The notes beneath the pieces were generated by a model that was not told the origin of the DNA, did no database searches, and saw only the letters and a list, made by a program, of their open reading frames with translations. Positions 1,554 to 15,709 of a stretch of DNA of 16,037 nucleotides are shown here, one piece after another; the first letter of the stretch is position 1, and each line of letters opens with the position of its first letter. Made by a program: the position numbers and the translations under genes. Origin of the DNA: Flavobacterium sp. (lineage in GTDB: Bacteria; Bacteroidota; Bacteroidia; Flavobacteriales; Flavobacteriaceae); contig NZ_JAIWOF010000102.1 in NCBI RefSeq assembly GCF_020217025.1, forward strand, positions 1 to 16,037. The letters are read 5' to 3'.

Positions 1554-3479
1554 ATGCAGTTCAAACATCCAGAAATTCTCTACTTCCTTTTTCTGTTGGT
1601 TATACCAATTTTGGTGCATTTATTTCAATTACGTCGTTTTAAAAAAGAATATTTTACTAACGTAAAGCTTCTGAAAGAACTTCAAATTCAAACCCGAAAA
1701 AGTTCTAAAATCAAGAAATGGTTGTTGTTGGCAACACGCTTATTGTTGTTAACTTGTTTGATTTTAGCCTTTGCCCAACCTTTTTTTGACGCCAAAGACA
1801 CCACAAACAAAGGAAACGAACTTATCATTTTATTAGACAACTCGTTTTCGATGCAAGCCAAAGGCGCAAAAGGCGAATTACTCAAACGCAGCATTCAAGA
1901 TTTATTAGAAGAATTACCCGAAAACCAACAATTCTCATTACTTACGAATTCCGAAGTTTTTTGGGATACGGATATCAAATCCATTCAAAAAGAATTGCAG
2001 AATTTAAAATATTCTGCGATATCGTTTCAATTGGATTATTTGATTAATCAAGTCGAAACCAAAAAGAAAAACACTAAGAAAGACTACGTTATCATTACTG
2101 ATGCTATCCAATCCGAAAGTAAAAAAGCATTGGATTTAGCCGAAAATAATGTTGTGTATTTCATCCAATCCGAAGCGCAAAACAAAACCAACATCAGCAT
2201 TGATAAAGTTGCGATTTCACAAGTCCTAGATCAGTTTTACGAACTGAAAATAACGCTTCAAGCTTTTGGAGAAACTGAAAATGAAGTGCCACTTTCTGTT
2301 TTTAGTAACAACAAAGCAATTGCTAAAACCATCGCAAAATTTGAAACGCAAAAGACAGAAATTGCAATCACCATTCCAAAAAACGATTTCCACGGAAACA
2401 TAAGTATCGAAGATAACAGCTTAAGCTACGACAACGATTACTATTTGAGCATTTCAAAACCAGAAAAAGCGAATGTAATTGCCATCGGAAATTCAGATAA
2501 AAACAATTTCTTAAGTCGCATATTCACGGCTGATGAATTTAATTTTCAAAGCACAGAATTAGCTACTTTAGACTACAATCAAATTGAAAATCAAGATGCG
2601 ATTGTATTGAACGAATTGGAAGATTTACCAGTTGCTTTGGGAACGACATTGAAATCGTTTTACGAAAAAGGCGGTAATATTGTTTTAATTCCGAATGCAA
2701 AAAATACACCAAGTCTATTAAATGCTTTTGTGAAAAACTTTGGTGGATTCAACTATTCCCAACTTACAACTTCTGGAAAACAAATCACGAAAATCAACTT
2801 TAATCATCCGTTATATCAAACAGTTTTTGAGAAAAAAGTGAGTAATTTCCAATATCCAAATGTTAAAGAAAGTTTCACTTTATCAGGTATTACGAATATT
2901 TTACAATACGAAGACAATTCAGTTTTCGTGGGTTCGACTACGAATCGATTGGGAACTTTTTACGCTTTTTCGGCACCGATAAACAAACAAAATAGTAACT
3001 TCCAAAATGCGCCATTAATTGTTCCAACCTTCTACAACATGGGACAAAATCAAGGCAAAACCGGAATTAACGCTTACACCATTGGAGAAAACGAAAACCT
3101 AATTTTAGAAACGATTTTAGCCAAAGACGAAGTAGTTTCAGTACAAAAAGAAGGCTATAGTTTCATTCCGATGCAACAAATTTTGAATACCAAATGTAAA
3201 TTATCGTTTGGTGATTATCCTGAAGAAGCAGGAAATTTTGATGTTATAAAAGCGAACAATTCGCTAAAGAAAATCAGCTTCAACTATCCAAGAACCGAAA
3301 GCGATTTAACGCAAGTTTCGACTACCAATTTTGAGAATTTCACTAAAGTAAACAACATAGCCACCGTTCTAAACGACATTGCTTATGAACGCACGAGCAA
3401 TGAAATTTGGAAATGGTTTATCATCGCAACACTACTATTTTTAATAACAGAACTACTAATCCAAAAATTTGTAAAATGA
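1554..3479 (+). CDS. BatA-domain / vWA-like membrane protein
   Basis: This is a 641-residue inner-membrane protein. Two N-terminal hydrophobic segments (about 8-26 and 55-76), separated by a short basic stretch, form the BatA-type N-terminal double-membrane domain. A von Willebrand A-like start follows (ELIILLDNSFSM, 89-100) with a MIDAS-type DxSxS at D95-S97-S99. The long middle part is probably periplasmic and includes a glutamine-amidotransferase-like Rossmann segment around 350-400 (AIVLNELEDLPVALG, then KGGNIVLIPN). A last hydrophobic helix at about 617-638 anchors the C-terminus. This architecture is common in Bacteroidota, sometimes near MoxR/Bat genes; none is present here. Its role (envelope stress, MoxR-linked chaperone) is not established. 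The stop overlaps the next start (ATGA), suggesting translational coupling with the dihydroorotase homologue. Confidence 0.85.
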   Translation: MQFKHPEILYFLFLLVIPILVHLFQLRRFKKEYFTNVKLLKELQIQTRKSSKIKKWLLLATRLLLLTCLILAFAQPFFDAKDTTNKGNELIILLDNSFSMQAKGAKGELLKRSIQDLLEELPENQQFSLLTNSEVFWDTDIKSIQKELQNLKYSAISFQLDYLINQVETKKKNTKKDYVIITDAIQSESKKALDLAENNVVYFIQSEAQNKTNISIDKVAISQVLDQFYELKITLQAFGETENEVPLSVFSNNKAIAKTIAKFETQKTEIAITIPKNDFHGNISIEDNSLSYDNDYYLSISKPEKANVIAIGNSDKNNFLSRIFTADEFNFQSTELATLDYNQIENQDAIVLNELEDLPVALGTTLKSFYEKGGNIVLIPNAKNTPSLLNAFVKNFGGFNYSQLTTSGKQITKINFNHPLYQTVFEKKVSNFQYPNVKESFTLSGITNILQYEDNSVFVGSTTNRLGTFYAFSAPINKQNSNFQNAPLIVPTFYNMGQNQGKTGINAYTIGENENLILETILAKDEVVSVQKEGYSFIPMQQILNTKCKLSFGDYPEEAGNFDVIKANNSLKKISFNYPRTESDLTQVSTTNFENFTKVNNIATVLNDIAYERTSNEIWKWFIIATLLFLITELLIQKFVK

Positions 3480-4735
3480 CGCAAGTTATTCTAAAACAAG
3501 CCAAAATTATCGACGCTTCAAGTCCGTTTCACAACCAAGTGATGGACATTAAAATTGAAAACGGAACGATAACTCAAATAGAAAAAGAAATTTCTGCTAC
3601 TTCTGGGTTTGAAGTGGTAAATATTCCAAACTTACACGTTTCCAAAGGTTGGATGGACAGCTCGGTTTCTTTTGGAGAACCAGGCTACGAAGACCGCGAA
3701 ACCATAGAAAACGGATTAAAAGTCGCAGCTAAAAGCGGATTTACTGCGGTAGCTTTACAACCAAACTCAAATCCAACCATCGACAATCAAGCGCAAGTGC
3801 GATTTGTGTTGGACAGAGCTAAAAATCAAGCGACAACTTTATATCCCATCGGAGCCTTAACAAAAGGTAGCGAAGGCACCGATTTAGCGGAATTATTCGA
3901 CATGAAAAACGCGGGAGCTATTGTTTTCGGAGATTATAAAAAAGCCTTACAAAATGCTAATCTTCAAAAAATTGCGTTGCAATACGTTCAAGATTTCGAT
4001 GGAATGTTGATTGCTTTTTGTCAAGATAGCACTTTAAAAGGAATTGGAATTGCAAATGAAGGCGTTATCAGTACAAAATTAGGTATGAAAGGAATTCCGG
4101 CTTTAGCAGAAGAATTGCAAGTCGCACGTAACTTATTTTTATTAGAATATACAGGCGGAAAATTACATATCCCAACCATTTCAACTCAAGGCAGCATCAA
4201 ATTAATCAAAGAAGCAAAATCAAAAGGATTGCAAGTTACTTGTAGTGTTGCCGTTCACAATTTAGTTTTGAATGACGAAGTATTAATGGGATTTGATACG
4301 AGATACAAAGTATTGCCTCCATTACGCGAAGAAGCTACAAGAAAAGCTTTAGTAGAAGCGGTTTTAGATGGAACGATTGATTGCATTACTTCCGACCACA
4401 ATCCGTTAGACATCGAACATAAGAAATTAGAATTCGATTTAGCGAAGGATGGAACCATCGGTTTAGAAAGTGCATTTGGTGCTTTAATGACAGTTTTACC
4501 ACTTGAAGTTGTAGTTGAAAAATTAAATACTAATAAACTGGTTTTCAATGTAGAAAATCCATCAATAATAAGTAACAACAAAGCCGATATTTCACTATTC
4601 ACAACAGAAGAAAATTGGACATTTGTAAAAGAAAACATCTTATCAAAATCTAAAAATTCGGCTTTCTTAGGACAAAAAATGAAAGGAAAAGCCATCGGAA
4701 TTTACAACAACGGGCAATTGATAATTAACAATTAA
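3476..4735 (+). CDS. Dihydroorotase homologue lacking metal ligands (pseudo-dihydroorotase)
   Basis: This 419-residue protein belongs to the amidohydrolase superfamily, closest by eye to class I dihydroorotase of pyrimidine synthesis. The framework is recognisable: GWMDSSVSFGEPG (58-70), FGD (151-153), FCQD (181-184), HIPTISTQGS (231-240) and IDCITSDHNP (301-310). The expected metal ligands are missing. The HxH of the usual D-x-H-V-H is S63 and S65, the histidine of the HCED-like motif is F181, and the second histidine of HIxHxST is T234. The substrate-binding R of REPG is G67. D153 and D307 remain. It is therefore probably not a dihydroorotase. A known precedent is the inactive PyrC' of Pseudomonas, which supports aspartate carbamoyltransferase structure; a similar scaffold role here is inference. 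The ATG at 3476 overlaps the preceding stop by 4 bases. The frame is intact, so it is under selection, not a pseudogene. Confidence 0.85.
   Translation: MTQVILKQAKIIDASSPFHNQVMDIKIENGTITQIEKEISATSGFEVVNIPNLHVSKGWMDSSVSFGEPGYEDRETIENGLKVAAKSGFTAVALQPNSNPTIDNQAQVRFVLDRAKNQATTLYPIGALTKGSEGTDLAELFDMKNAGAIVFGDYKKALQNANLQKIALQYVQDFDGMLIAFCQDSTLKGIGIANEGVISTKLGMKGIPALAEELQVARNLFLLEYTGGKLHIPTISTQGSIKLIKEAKSKGLQVTCSVAVHNLVLNDEVLMGFDTRYKVLPPLREEATRKALVEAVLDGTIDCITSDHNPLDIEHKKLEFDLAKDGTIGLESAFGALMTVLPLEVVVEKLNTNKLVFNVENPSIISNNKADISLFTTEENWTFVKENILSKSKNSAFLGQKMKGKAIGIYNNGQLIINN
4715..4733 (-). repeat. Short AT-rich dispersed repeat, copy 2 (inverted)
   Basis: CAATTGATAATTAACAATT is the inverted near-copy (17 of 19) of 1502-1520. 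It supplies the last codons (Q-L-I-I-N-N) and reaches into the stop codon of the dihydroorotase homologue, so the C-terminus of that protein is partly built from repeat sequence. Confidence 0.5.
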
Positions 4736-4740
4736 TCGAT

Positions 4741-5067
4741 ATGAAAGAAGAAATAAATAAAGGTAAACAAACAGCAATTGTAAGCTATTTAACTATTGTA
4801 GGGTCAATAATTGCAATATTTATGAATCAAGAAGAAAATCGTAGTGAATTTGCTAGTTTTCATATCAGACAAGCATTAGGCATTTTCTTAACCTTCTTTT
4901 TATTAGGGTATCCTGTTGGTTATTTTGATAATTGGATGGTTTCAGCTTCATTTTGGATATTTATTTTCATACTATGGATTTATGGTTTTATCAATTGTTT
5001 AAATGGTGAAATGAAAATAGTTCCTTTTTTGGGAGAACTATATCAAAAAATTTTCAAATCCTTTTAA
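4741..5067 (+). CDS. Small DUF4870-like membrane protein
   Basis: The product has 108 residues and about three hydrophobic helices (near 13-30, 45-62 and 70-92). The pattern KQTAIVSYLTIVGSIIAIF, a short polar loop with ENRSEFASFH, then IRQALGIFLTF is typical of small DUF4870/Tic20-like membrane proteins in Bacteroidota. Their function is unknown. No catalytic residues are visible. It starts 5 bases after the dihydroorotase homologue with no visible promoter, so it is probably the last gene of that operon. The family assignment rests on pattern recognition only. Confidence 0.75.
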   Translation: MKEEINKGKQTAIVSYLTIVGSIIAIFMNQEENRSEFASFHIRQALGIFLTFFLLGYPVGYFDNWMVSASFWIFIFILWIYGFINCLNGEMKIVPFLGELYQKIFKSF

Positions 5068-12129: not shown

Positions 12130-13263
12130 ATGTCAAAGAACATACAACTAAACACAATTGAAGAAGCTATTGAAGACATCCGTCAAGGAAAAGTAATCAT
12201 AGTAGTAGATGATGAAGACAGAGAAAACGAAGGCGATTTCTTAGCTGCTGCCGAAAAAGTAACGCCAGAAATGATTAATTTCATGGCAACACATGGTAGA
12301 GGATTAATCTGTGCTCCATTAACCGAATCACGTTGTAAAGAATTAGATCTTCATGCCATGGTGCGTAATAACACCGACCACATGGAAACCGCTTTTACCG
12401 TTTCGGTTGACCTAAAGGGAAAAGGAGTTTCTACAGGAATTTCTGCTTCTGATAGAGCTTTAACTATTCAAGCCTTAATTGACCCTGAAACCAAACCATT
12501 CGATTTAGCACGTCCAGGACATATTTTCCCATTGATTGCCAAACAAGGTGGCGTTTTAAGAAGAACAGGACACACCGAAGCTGCCATTGATTTTGCACGT
12601 TTAGCTGGATTTAAACCGGCAGGTGTTATCGTAGAAATCATGAACGAAGACGGAACAATGGCACGTTTACCGCAACTGGTAGAAGTAGCGAAGAAATTCG
12701 ACTTAAAATTGGTTTCGATTGAAGATTTAGTAGCATACAGAATGCAACACGATAGCTTAATTCAAAAGAAAGAAGATTTTGATATCGAAACGCGTTTTGG
12801 AACATTTAGAATGCGTGCGTATTTACAAACAACTAACAAACAAGTTCACATAGCCATAACAAAAGGAACATGGAATGCTGGAGAACCTATTTTAACACGC
12901 ATTAATACAACGCAAGTAAATAATGATATTTTAGGAACGCTTACTAGCGATAACGATAAAAAGTTAGACAGTGTTTTCCGTAAAATAAACGAAGCTGAAA
13001 AAGGAGCTATTGTGTTTATTAATCAAGAAGTTAAGTCTTTAGAATTATTAGAACGTATCGCCGAATTAAAAGTATTACAAAGCCAAGGTGAAATGCGTGC
13101 TCCACAAATTAAAATGGACACCAAAGATTTCGGAATCGGAGCACAAATCCTTCACGATTTAGATATTACCAAAATCGAATTACTATCCAACAGCACCGCT
13201 CCTACCAAACGAGTAGGAATGATAGGCTACGGCTTAGAAATTACCGATTATGTAAATTATTAA
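12130..13263 (+). CDS. ribB: 3,4-dihydroxy-2-butanone-4-phosphate synthase with degenerate GTP cyclohydrolase II domain (RibB/RibBX type)
   Basis: This 377-residue cytoplasmic protein acts in riboflavin synthesis. The N-terminal half (about 1-205) is an intact DHBP synthase, converting ribulose 5-phosphate to the four-carbon unit: [10 protein letters not shown] (27-36), THGRGLIC (54-61), RPGHIFPL (128-135), [16 protein letters not shown] (145-160) and [12 protein letters not shown] (169-180). The C-terminal half (about 218-377) aligns without gaps to GTP cyclohydrolase II around [19 protein letters not shown] but has lost the zinc cysteines: expected C positions are Q262, S273 and N275. The catalytic QEGR segment reads QEVK (299-302). 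[13 protein letters not shown] (332-344) is still conserved. The second half should therefore lack cyclohydrolase activity, and a separate RibA would be needed. It starts 4 bases after the permease stop and ends the operon. Confidence 0.95.
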
Positions 13264-13371: not shown

Positions 13372-14901
13372 TTATTCAAAAATATTCATGTCTTCCTTAT
13401 AAATAGGACTTTCAATATTTAAAAAATGTAAGACACTATGAAATACATGGTATTGCGACAAATTATCCATCTTTTTCACTTTCATTTTACTTGTATCTGA
13501 AACCCATACAATAAATGGAATTTCATATTGTTCTTTTGGAGCAATACTCATAGGAATTCCATGCATATATAAGTTATTTTCTCCTAAAGATTCCCCATGA
13601 TCAGAAACAAAAAGCATCGTGCTTTTATACGTATTCAATTGCTTTAATGATTCAATTGTTTTATGTAAAATATAATCGGTATAAACAATCGAATTATCAT
13701 ATGCATTAATAAGTTCTGCTTGAGAGCAATTTGACAATTCTACACTTTTACAAACGGGTGTAAAATGCTCAAATTGAGCAGGATATTTCTTGTTATAACT
13801 AGGACCATGACTCGTACTTGTATGCAAAACAATTAAAATTTTATTCTTTTTACTAGCTAAAATCTGCTCTTTTAATCCATTTAAAAGAACTTCGTCATAA
13901 CCACAGTAGTCTTCTTTACAATTGGCTTGTAAATACTTCTTATCTTGATAATTTTTAACATGTACGGGTGGCTCACCCCAGTTGGTAGTTCGCCAAATTA
14001 CCTCTACATGATTACGATACAAATAATTAGGCAAAATTTCATACAAATCATCAGTTTCTTTGTGATCTAAAATACTTTTCACACCTGCTGTCGTGTAAGT
14101 AGCACTAGAATTGGCATCAAAATGGAATAAATTTTGAGTTTTAGACAACAGTGGATTCGTATTTTTACTGTAACCATATAAAGAAAAATTTTGTCTTCGA
14201 GCCGATTCTCCAATGACTAAAACTACAATCGCTTTTTCATTATCCTTTATTTTTGCATCTGGAAGTAAAATTTCCTTCTCATTTTTTTTATTTTGATGAA
14301 TATAAAAAAGAGACGTATTTACTACATACGACCACGGCATTGCTAATCCTCCTAACCTTTTTGAATTCTTATCAATCCATAACCAATTACTTGCATTAAC
14401 AAAAACTAAAACCAAAGCAAACAATAAGGTAAGCGATGATAGTATCGAAAACTTCTTCAGTGATACACTTTCAATTTTACTTTTAACAATCAAATAACTT
14501 GGTAAAACTCCCAAGAAAATAAGATAAAGTACCAATTTTAATGAAAAATAACTGCTCGACTCATCATAATTGGTATTCAATACATTACCAATCATACTTT
14601 CGTCTACAATTATGCCATAGGTTGAAACGAAGTAAACAGCAATGGCATTAAATAAAAAGAATAATACGAGTATAAATTTTCCTATCCGTTGTGATAAAAA
14701 TAAAAGTAAAAAAAACACAAACGCATTTAACAATATCATGAGTACTACCAAACTCGTTATCACAAAAAAACCACTAAAGCTTTTATAATTGATATTTTCA
14801 AATACGAAATTAAAAAAAGGAATATGAAAAAATAAGAAGTTAAGACAACTGATAATTAAAATAAAAGGCAGGATCTTGAAGTTATTTTTTAACGTAAACA
14901 T
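13372..14901 (-). CDS. EptA-type phosphoethanolamine transferase
   Basis: This 509-residue inner-membrane enzyme belongs to the sulfatase/alkaline-phosphatase superfamily and would move phosphoethanolamine from phosphatidylethanolamine to lipid A or another glycan in the periplasm. About five hydrophobic helices occupy 1-170, followed by a periplasmic catalytic domain. That domain shows IGESARRQNFSLYGYSKNTNP (E232), the nucleophile loop SSATYTTAGVKSIL with T270 aligning to the catalytic threonine, NCKEDYC (C328, C333), HTSTSHGPSY (H366), VC...NC (C384, C392) and SDHGESLGENNLYMHG (D434, H435, H447). The disulfide cysteines that usually flank the nucleophile loop are serines (S266, S276). Start choice: ATG at 14901 gives MFTLKNNFK; an in-frame ATG at 14925 would add eight residues. 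Either way the gene overlaps the PAP2 gene, so the two are co-transcribed. The acceptor (lipid A position or otherwise) is inferred. Confidence 0.9.
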   Translation of the reverse strand: MFTLKNNFKILPFILIISCLNFLFFHIPFFNFVFENINYKSFSGFFVITSLVVLMILLNAFVFFLLLFLSQRIGKFILVLFFLFNAIAVYFVSTYGIIVDESMIGNVLNTNYDESSSYFSLKLVLYLIFLGVLPSYLIVKSKIESVSLKKFSILSSLTLLFALVLVFVNASNWLWIDKNSKRLGGLAMPWSYVVNTSLFYIHQNKKNEKEILLPDAKIKDNEKAIVVLVIGESARRQNFSLYGYSKNTNPLLSKTQNLFHFDANSSATYTTAGVKSILDHKETDDLYEILPNYLYRNHVEVIWRTTNWGEPPVHVKNYQDKKYLQANCKEDYCGYDEVLLNGLKEQILASKKNKILIVLHTSTSHGPSYNKKYPAQFEHFTPVCKSVELSNCSQAELINAYDNSIVYTDYILHKTIESLKQLNTYKSTMLFVSDHGESLGENNLYMHGIPMSIAPKEQYEIPFIVWVSDTSKMKVKKMDNLSQYHVFHSVLHFLNIESPIYKEDMNIFE

Positions 14902-15709
14902 AAATAAATTTATAAAGAGCCACAAATAAACTAATTAATGCTAAATAAAACACTATAATTTTTTCATTATATATTTTTATTGAAACCGAAATACAACAGG
15001 CAATAATAGCAACAATAAATATAGGGCTATATTTCTTGAAACAAATCCAGTTCCAAATTTTATATTTTCTACTAATGAATATTCCTAACAGACCAGAACA
15101 ATATCCGATAACACTTCCTATTAAAACATCAAAAGGAAAATGAGCTCCTACGGCTACTCTAGATAGTCCAATTAAATACCCAAAACCTAGTAGAAGAAAA
15201 ATCCACATGCCTTTATATATATTTTTTTTAGGCATAAAAGCAAATAGAATTACAGTTAAAATCGTAAAAATGGTAACCGTATGCCCTGATGGCAAACTAC
15301 TAAAACCATGTAATGTTCTCCCTACGATAATAAAACTATCCTCATTTAAAATTTCTGCAGGTCGTGGAATTAAAAATAAATCTTTAAAAAATTTACAGAA
15401 AACTGCAGAAACTAGTAAGGCAGAAAGCAACGATTCCCAAACTTTAGGCGCATAAATTACCAATAAAATTAAAAACGATAAAAATATAGAGGCATCACCT
15501 AGTTGCGTCAAGTTAAAGGCCGTTACCTTATACGCTCCAAAATAATGATTCAAATCATAAAACCAATCCTTTTGAATTGCTACATAACCTTGAACACTTA
15601 AGGCATCATTCATTAAGAGAAACAAAACTAGGGTTAGAATGATAAAAAATGGAAATAAAAATAATCTAGGATTTATTTTATTAAAATTAGCAATTACGAC
15701 TTCGTTCAT
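14882..15709 (-). CDS. PAP2-family membrane lipid phosphatase (LpxE-like candidate)
   Basis: This is a 275-residue multi-spanning PAP2 phosphatase. All three active-site motifs are complete: K109-x6-R116-P117 (KDLFLIPRP), PSGH (140-143) and SR-x5-H-x3-D (S183-R184, H190, D194). It has about six helices in the PAP2 core (20-215) and two further hydrophobic segments at the C-terminus (about 228-245 and 252-272), an extension beyond the minimal family. PAP2 enzymes act on lipid phosphates such as phosphatidate, undecaprenyl diphosphate or lipid A. Because the gene is directly upstream of and overlaps an EptA-type transferase gene, a lipid A 1-phosphatase role like LpxE is favoured, by analogy with the Helicobacter pylori lpxE-eptA pair. 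UppP-type activity cannot be excluded. No exact TAnnTTTG is seen upstream, though the region to 15847 is extremely AT-rich. Confidence 0.9.
   Translation of the reverse strand: MNEVVIANFNKINPRLFLFPFFIILTLVLFLLMNDALSVQGYVAIQKDWFYDLNHYFGAYKVTAFNLTQLGDASIFLSFLILLVIYAPKVWESLLSALLVSAVFCKFFKDLFLIPRPAEILNEDSFIIVGRTLHGFSSLPSGHTVTIFTILTVILFAFMPKKNIYKGMWIFLLLGFGYLIGLSRVAVGAHFPFDVLIGSVIGYCSGLLGIFISRKYKIWNWICFKKYSPIFIVAIIACCISVSIKIYNEKIIVFYLALISLFVALYKFIYVYVKK

Follow-up and report, generated by a model that had tools for sequence, protein, structure and literature searches.

A dihydroorotase homologue without its metal site in Flavobacterium, a probable non-catalytic partner of aspartate carbamoyltransferase

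The window analysed here, a 16,037-nucleotide stretch of contig NZ_JAIWOF010000102.1 from Flavobacterium sp. (assembly GCF_020217025.1), carries on its forward strand an intact open reading frame (ORF) of 419 amino acids at 3476..4735, with an ATG at 3476 and a stop codon ending at 4735. Its product, termed pseudo-dihydroorotase (pDHO, PyrC'-like) in the following, is most likely a catalytically dead dihydroorotase of the Aquifex type that has been kept as an obligate non-catalytic subunit of a class A2 aspartate carbamoyltransferase (ATCase) made, as in Pseudomonas, of PyrB and PyrC'/pDHO; from its sequence and the analogy with Pseudomonas we put the probability of this reading at about 85%. 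It is proposed because the metal site is lost while the fold is kept, a second dihydroorotase with a carboxylated-lysine (KCX) site is present, pDHO occurs together with one type of PyrB and excludes PyrI, and some active relatives are found in pyrRBC gene order. The marks of a class A2 ATCase fit pDHO: it lacks the zinc site, a separate dihydroorotase is encoded in the genome, and PyrB is present without PyrI. An initial annotation of this stretch had named a structural partner of ATCase, with Pseudomonas PyrC' as precedent, as one of two possible roles, and the phylogenetic profile, the ancestral gene order and the type of PyrB now lend this proposal support at the level of sequence.

Alignment to the Aquifex dihydroorotase showed that five of the six metal ligands are replaced in pDHO. 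Codons 62-67 (3659..3676; this and the following sites lie on the forward strand) read S S V S F G where the xHxHxR motif for zinc and substrate is expected, which puts S63 at H61, S65 at H63 and G67 at the substrate arginine R65. F181 (4016..4018) takes the place of H180 and T234 (4175..4177) that of H232, and the sole metal ligand kept is D307 (4394..4396), corresponding to D305. All these assignments had already been made in the initial annotation and agree with the alignment. It had, however, also counted D153 as a retained ligand, which is off by one: D153 aligns with Aquifex D152, the neighbour of the ligand, and the ligand itself, Asp153, the second Asp of TDDG that is followed by Gly154 (PMC3880350), aligns with Y154 (codons of D153 and Y154 at 3932..3937). 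Thus, the alpha zinc site (HxH and Asp153) is absent, as are the beta site histidines and the substrate arginine.

The loss of ligands is shared by the relatives of pDHO, of which the best 80 of the 86 found in a scan of genome contigs were examined. None of these 80 loci has a histidine at any of the four sites (in one locus, L083, a truncation has removed the position of T234), and 78 lack all three alpha-site ligands. D307 alone is kept in 73 loci, D307 together with an Asp at position 154 in two, and no ligand in five, including L083; position 154 is Tyr in 72. Since 80 related loci share the loss, chance or a sequencing error can be ruled out as its cause. S63 and T234 are invariant in 40/40 non-redundant sequences among the nearer relatives, so these two replacements are fixed there, but the replacement residues differ between families. 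The replaced sites are also not significantly more conserved than random ones (eight sites; 9.8% of random sets were as low). In a wider set of 34 loci from the class, at most three of the six ligands are left; the H232 site is lost in all of them and the patterns differ otherwise.

The fold is nevertheless that of an Aquifex-type dihydroorotase, according to a confident single-chain prediction. The closest solved structures are the Aquifex complexes 3d6n and 4bjh by VIA-align Z, and these together with 1xrf by sequence; Foldseek ranked a B. anthracis dihydroorotase first and the Aquifex complex structures next. The fold score was higher to the complexed than to the free Aquifex dihydroorotase, but as loops are missing from the free structures this difference was set aside. 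A loop with the motif NEG..ST.LG..GIP.LAE (codons 194-213, 4055..4114, forward strand) is kept in active and inactive Aquifex-type proteins; the blocks with the lowest confidence in the pDHO model (181-210) overlap with it. Of 98 residues that are invariant in seven active enzymes, 51 persist in 85% or more of 42 inactive proteins. The score for TIGR00857 is below the cut-off (272.7 against 279.05 bits), and the cut-offs of all 25 models listed among 31 matched are missed.

One further dihydroorotase, P0002 (G000:C67), was found in the same genome, in a search that did not cover type-II dihydroorotases. It passes the NCBIfam equivalog NF006688 (716.6 bits, cut-off 535), resembles the solved P. 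gingivalis protein 2gwn (524 bits) and does not contain the above loop motif as judged by eye. P0002 keeps the KCX site, two later His, Asp and Arg; the usual His-x-His is Gln-x-His, likewise in 2gwn. A search for a second dihydroorotase with an HxH motif had been suggested as a check; the second enzyme exists but is of another type. The pyrB gene, which was to be sought as well, is also present, in the order pyrR-pyrB and on another contig than the pDHO gene. PyrI was not found in this one genome (0/1; assembly 92.75% complete). Single absences in a genome with this completeness are weak evidence, and therefore the survey of the class carries the weight. The own PyrB is closest in the PDB to the Aquifex PyrB of the dihydroorotase-ATCase complex, by a small margin (203.6 bits, next match 200.3).

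For the survey, 396 genomes of the class were used. We take this class to be Bacteroidia; two groups within it, f2 and the genomes with PyrI, presumably correspond to Weeksellaceae and Bacteroidales, and no count rests on these names. A strong match to the pDHO family (best E value below 1e-40 to the family alignment) was found in 351/396 genomes; motifs were read in 43 of these (the own protein, the 34 class loci, G072 and seven diverged copies), and the remainder rest on the score. PyrI was detected in 22/396 genomes, and not one of these 22 has a strong pDHO match. A wider alignment (A2) gave best scores between 1e-25 and 1e-54 for them, and all ten loci read, from 10 of the 22 genomes, encode a KCX-type enzyme. 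The first screen had given 45 absentees, 23 of them without PyrI; this number was too high, and the wider alignment recovered diverged inactive copies in 10 of the 23 (seven in family f89, and G412, G438 and G406). The copies of f89 and G438 (L204-L207, L210-L213) are extremely diverged, with 27-29% identity in the seven compared, and here the otherwise invariant Asp sites are changed too. For four of the eight f2 genomes (G210, G265, G277, G308) the screen used the first alignment alone; in the four f2 genomes examined, the KCX type is present (three read) and pDHO was not found.

A KCX-type enzyme (E value 1e-70 or better) was present in 43/44 genomes with a dead pDHO, the miss being G409, and in none of the four genomes with an intact Aquifex-type enzyme (G236, G009, G092 and G072), in which the best hit was the intact enzyme itself. 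Thus, the Aquifex-type enzyme is dead in genomes that have another dihydroorotase. The KCX dihydroorotases with Gln-x-His are naturally occurring variants in which one ligand of the metal site differs. Gln replaces the first metal His in 19/20 KCX enzymes from genomes with dead pDHO, the other six sites being kept in 20/20, and was seen in 5/14 KCX enzymes read from f2 genomes, PyrI genomes and G546.

The type of PyrB follows the presence of pDHO closely. As own-type we counted PyrB proteins with 45-89% identity to the own PyrB; the boundary at 44/45% was our choice. Such a PyrB was found in 111 of 112 genomes with inactive pDHO (two screened sets of 47 and 65), in four of them with hits at contig ends or in pieces, and in 0/36 clear pDHO absentees. 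The PyrB proteins of these absentees show 34-38% identity in the 22 PyrI genomes, 40-44% in eight f2 genomes and 37% in G462; G546 gave a match at 3.8e-5 only, and G420, G449, G166 and G367 gave none. The last four and G406, the single miss among the genomes with pDHO, are 97-100% complete, and they might be pyrimidine auxotrophs, have assembly gaps or use an unusual ATCase. Own-type PyrB without a full pDHO copy occurs in five genomes. Three of them (G562, G568, G604) look like assembly breaks, because a BatA-like gene, the usual upstream neighbour of the pDHO gene, is cut at the contig start where pDHO would follow; G604 has in addition a fragment of 207 amino acids. The tree of PyrB proteins separates the PyrI types together with G462 by a branch with 100/100 support and places f2 on a very long branch, with several deep forks open. 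In the two f2 loci read (L169, L170), this different PyrB is encoded before a carA gene (one named by NCBIfam).

Active relatives bear on the origin of pDHO. All six orthologue loci read from outside the class have the full set of six ligands. In G236, with an intact dihydroorotase, the genes are arranged as pyrR-pyrB-pyrC (named by NCBIfam), and the same arrangement is seen in G009 from the order of ORFs and the position of PyrB; in G092 the dihydroorotase is located on another contig than PyrB. The order in Pseudomonas is pyrRBC'. In the tree, the inactive proteins (25 of 36 rows) group in a single clade with an SH-aLRT of 100, which is still obtained without the active-site columns (98/93). 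An exception inside the class is G072, which encodes an intact Aquifex-type dihydroorotase (L214) 181 bases from a PyrB with 47% identity, possibly a re-acquired class A1 operon. G072 is among the 351 strong matches but was left out of the inactive count; in two relatives from its genus, G166 and G367, neither this enzyme nor PyrB was found.

By analogy with P. aeruginosa, pDHO would make or stabilise active PyrB, and pDHO dimers would clamp two PyrB trimers into a dodecamer. P0002 would then carry out the next step and cyclise carbamoyl aspartate. It might be imagined further that pDHO is the counterpart of PyrI in this class, that the vacated pocket with its lineage-fixed residues (S63, Y154, F181, T234 in the nearer relatives) binds an effector controlling ATCase, and that the operon with BatA couples pyrimidine supply to a process of the envelope; we regard this extension as unlikely.

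Several observations weigh against an ATCase subunit. In the own genome, the genes for pDHO and PyrB are not linked. Two genomes, G566 and G609, have an own-type PyrB, while neither pDHO nor the BatA-like gene was found; conversely, G406 has pDHO and no PyrB was found. The rates of pDHO and PyrB do not covary above the level seen with the KCX dihydroorotase (partial rho 0.30 against 0.27, n=41). The genomes with PyrI may represent few independent events. The own KCX enzyme carries Gln for one metal His, and that it is active is judged from its family. The likeness to Pseudomonas PyrC' is one of description (PMC7053772), and the trees contain no Pseudomonas sequences.

The second role that had been suggested was a function tied to the BatA-like protein. 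Upstream of pDHO at 1554..3479 (forward strand) lies the gene for a BatA-like membrane protein of 641 amino acids with a von Willebrand domain (Pfam BatA and VWA_2), and its stop codon overlaps the pDHO start codon by four bases in the sequence ATGA (3476..3479), in line with the translational coupling proposed initially. pDHO might thus work with this protein in membrane or aerotolerance functions, independently of pyrimidines, which we consider quite improbable. The neighbourhood is real and old: a BatA-like match precedes pDHO in 63 of the 80 related loci and in 26/34 class loci (23 within 20 bases, one 1.9 kb off), and the BatA-like gene was, like pDHO, not found in 19/22 PyrI genomes and 4/4 f2 genomes examined. 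It is also separable. No BatA-like match was found upstream in the other 17 of the 80 loci, Myroides among them, a different gene takes its place in L045, and in f89 both genes are present but apart. Nine genomes keep the BatA-like gene without pDHO (G492, G512, G586, G462, G546, G420, G449, G166, G367), so that the two are not retained and lost jointly; no homologue adjoins BatA in the stretches examined there (the contig of G462 ends 310 bases downstream), and none of the nine has an own-type PyrB. Beside the active orthologues outside the class, no BatA match was seen in 6/6 loci. Since nine genomes keep BatA alone and the genes are apart in f89, linkage to pyrimidine synthesis explains the presence and absence of pDHO better than linkage to BatA.

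That pDHO is still an active dihydroorotase or amidohydrolase, metal-independent or differently metallated and with a rebuilt pocket, is very improbable in our estimate. There are precedents: activity is cited for a PyrC paralogue of Pseudomonas that lacks zinc ligands (PMC2770081), and the Aquifex dihydroorotase stays active with the H180A/H232A exchanges, the alpha site H61/H63/D153 remaining (PMC3880350). It is this alpha site that is lost here, and in 0/34 class loci are all of H63, H65 and D154 kept. The invariance of S63 and T234 in the nearer relatives is suggestive only; the replacements vary by family and the replaced sites are not significantly more conserved than random ones. Furthermore, a dihydroorotase of the KCX type accompanies pDHO, and in the four f2 genomes examined this type occurs without pDHO. 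Finally, a decaying relic without function would account for the faster evolution of pDHO (39-48% identity to the own protein, compared with 66-80% for PyrB and 57-67% for the KCX dihydroorotase, in 33 of 41 genomes compared, the other eight being more diverged in all or in pDHO), but it is extremely improbable given the open frame, the 51 conserved invariants, the strong match in 351/396 genomes and the finding that, two genomes excepted, pDHO is clearly missing only from genomes that also lack an own-type PyrB.

In the window the pDHO gene is followed by a gene for a 108-amino-acid protein (4741..5067, forward strand) without a Pfam or NCBIfam match, which is often found at this position in Flavobacterium and its relatives; in many related loci the order is pDHO gene, 108-amino-acid protein gene and esterase gene. 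A RibB/RibA-like gene, 56-57% identical to the one at 12130-13263 in the window, is located directly 3' of the inactive pDHO gene in two families (L117, L118). On the minus strand, a phosphoethanolamine-transferase-like gene of the sulfatase fold (13372..14925) and a PAP2 phosphatase gene (14882..15709) overlap.

Among the literature matches listed, judged by title and the start of the abstract, none reported an inactive dihydroorotase in Bacteroidota. As far as this search reaches, several points are new: how far pDHO extends through the class, its exclusion of PyrI, its complementary occurrence with the KCX enzyme, its derivation next to a pyrRBC operon and its operon with BatA. The PyrC'/pDHO kind of protein is already known; here it is apparently spread through the class and annotated as an enzyme: named database entries for relatives read dihydroorotase or dihydroorotase family protein. 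If pDHO is a subunit of ATCase, these entries give the wrong function, which would affect metabolic models and readings of gene essentiality in Flavobacteria, and the class A2 ATCase described for Pseudomonas would be the standard form across most of the sampled class. Within one phylum, an active enzyme, a dead subunit and its replacement by PyrI would then make up a natural series, in which it becomes testable why a lost enzyme is kept and why ATCase needs a partner.

Of the known systems, Pseudomonas PyrC'/pDHO is the most similar in kind, with an inactive dihydroorotase homologue lacking zinc ligands, a PyrB without PyrI and, in the same genome, a separate dihydroorotase. On its own, the PyrB of P. 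aeruginosa is a monomer without activity, and it becomes active on addition of pDHO at about 1:1 (PMC7053772). The Flavobacterium gene differs in being located away from pyrB, the copies of the class lie mostly in an operon with BatA and are spread through most of the class sampled, and they are known here from sequence. The dihydroorotase-ATCase complex of Aquifex aeolicus (class A1; 3d6n, 4bjh) is closest by VIA-align Z and, with 1xrf, by sequence, and its PyrB is also the closest to the own one, but the Aquifex enzyme is active. The dihydroorotase-like domain of fungal CAD (5nnl) is likewise described as lacking zinc ligands and attached to ATCase (same source), although it is part of one large polypeptide and matches weakly in sequence (7.7e-5). 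In ATCase dodecamers, dihydroorotase dimers occupy the place of PyrI dimers, according to that paper. In the class, pDHO and PyrI exclude each other. The PyrI of class B ATCases is an unrelated protein that binds nucleotides.

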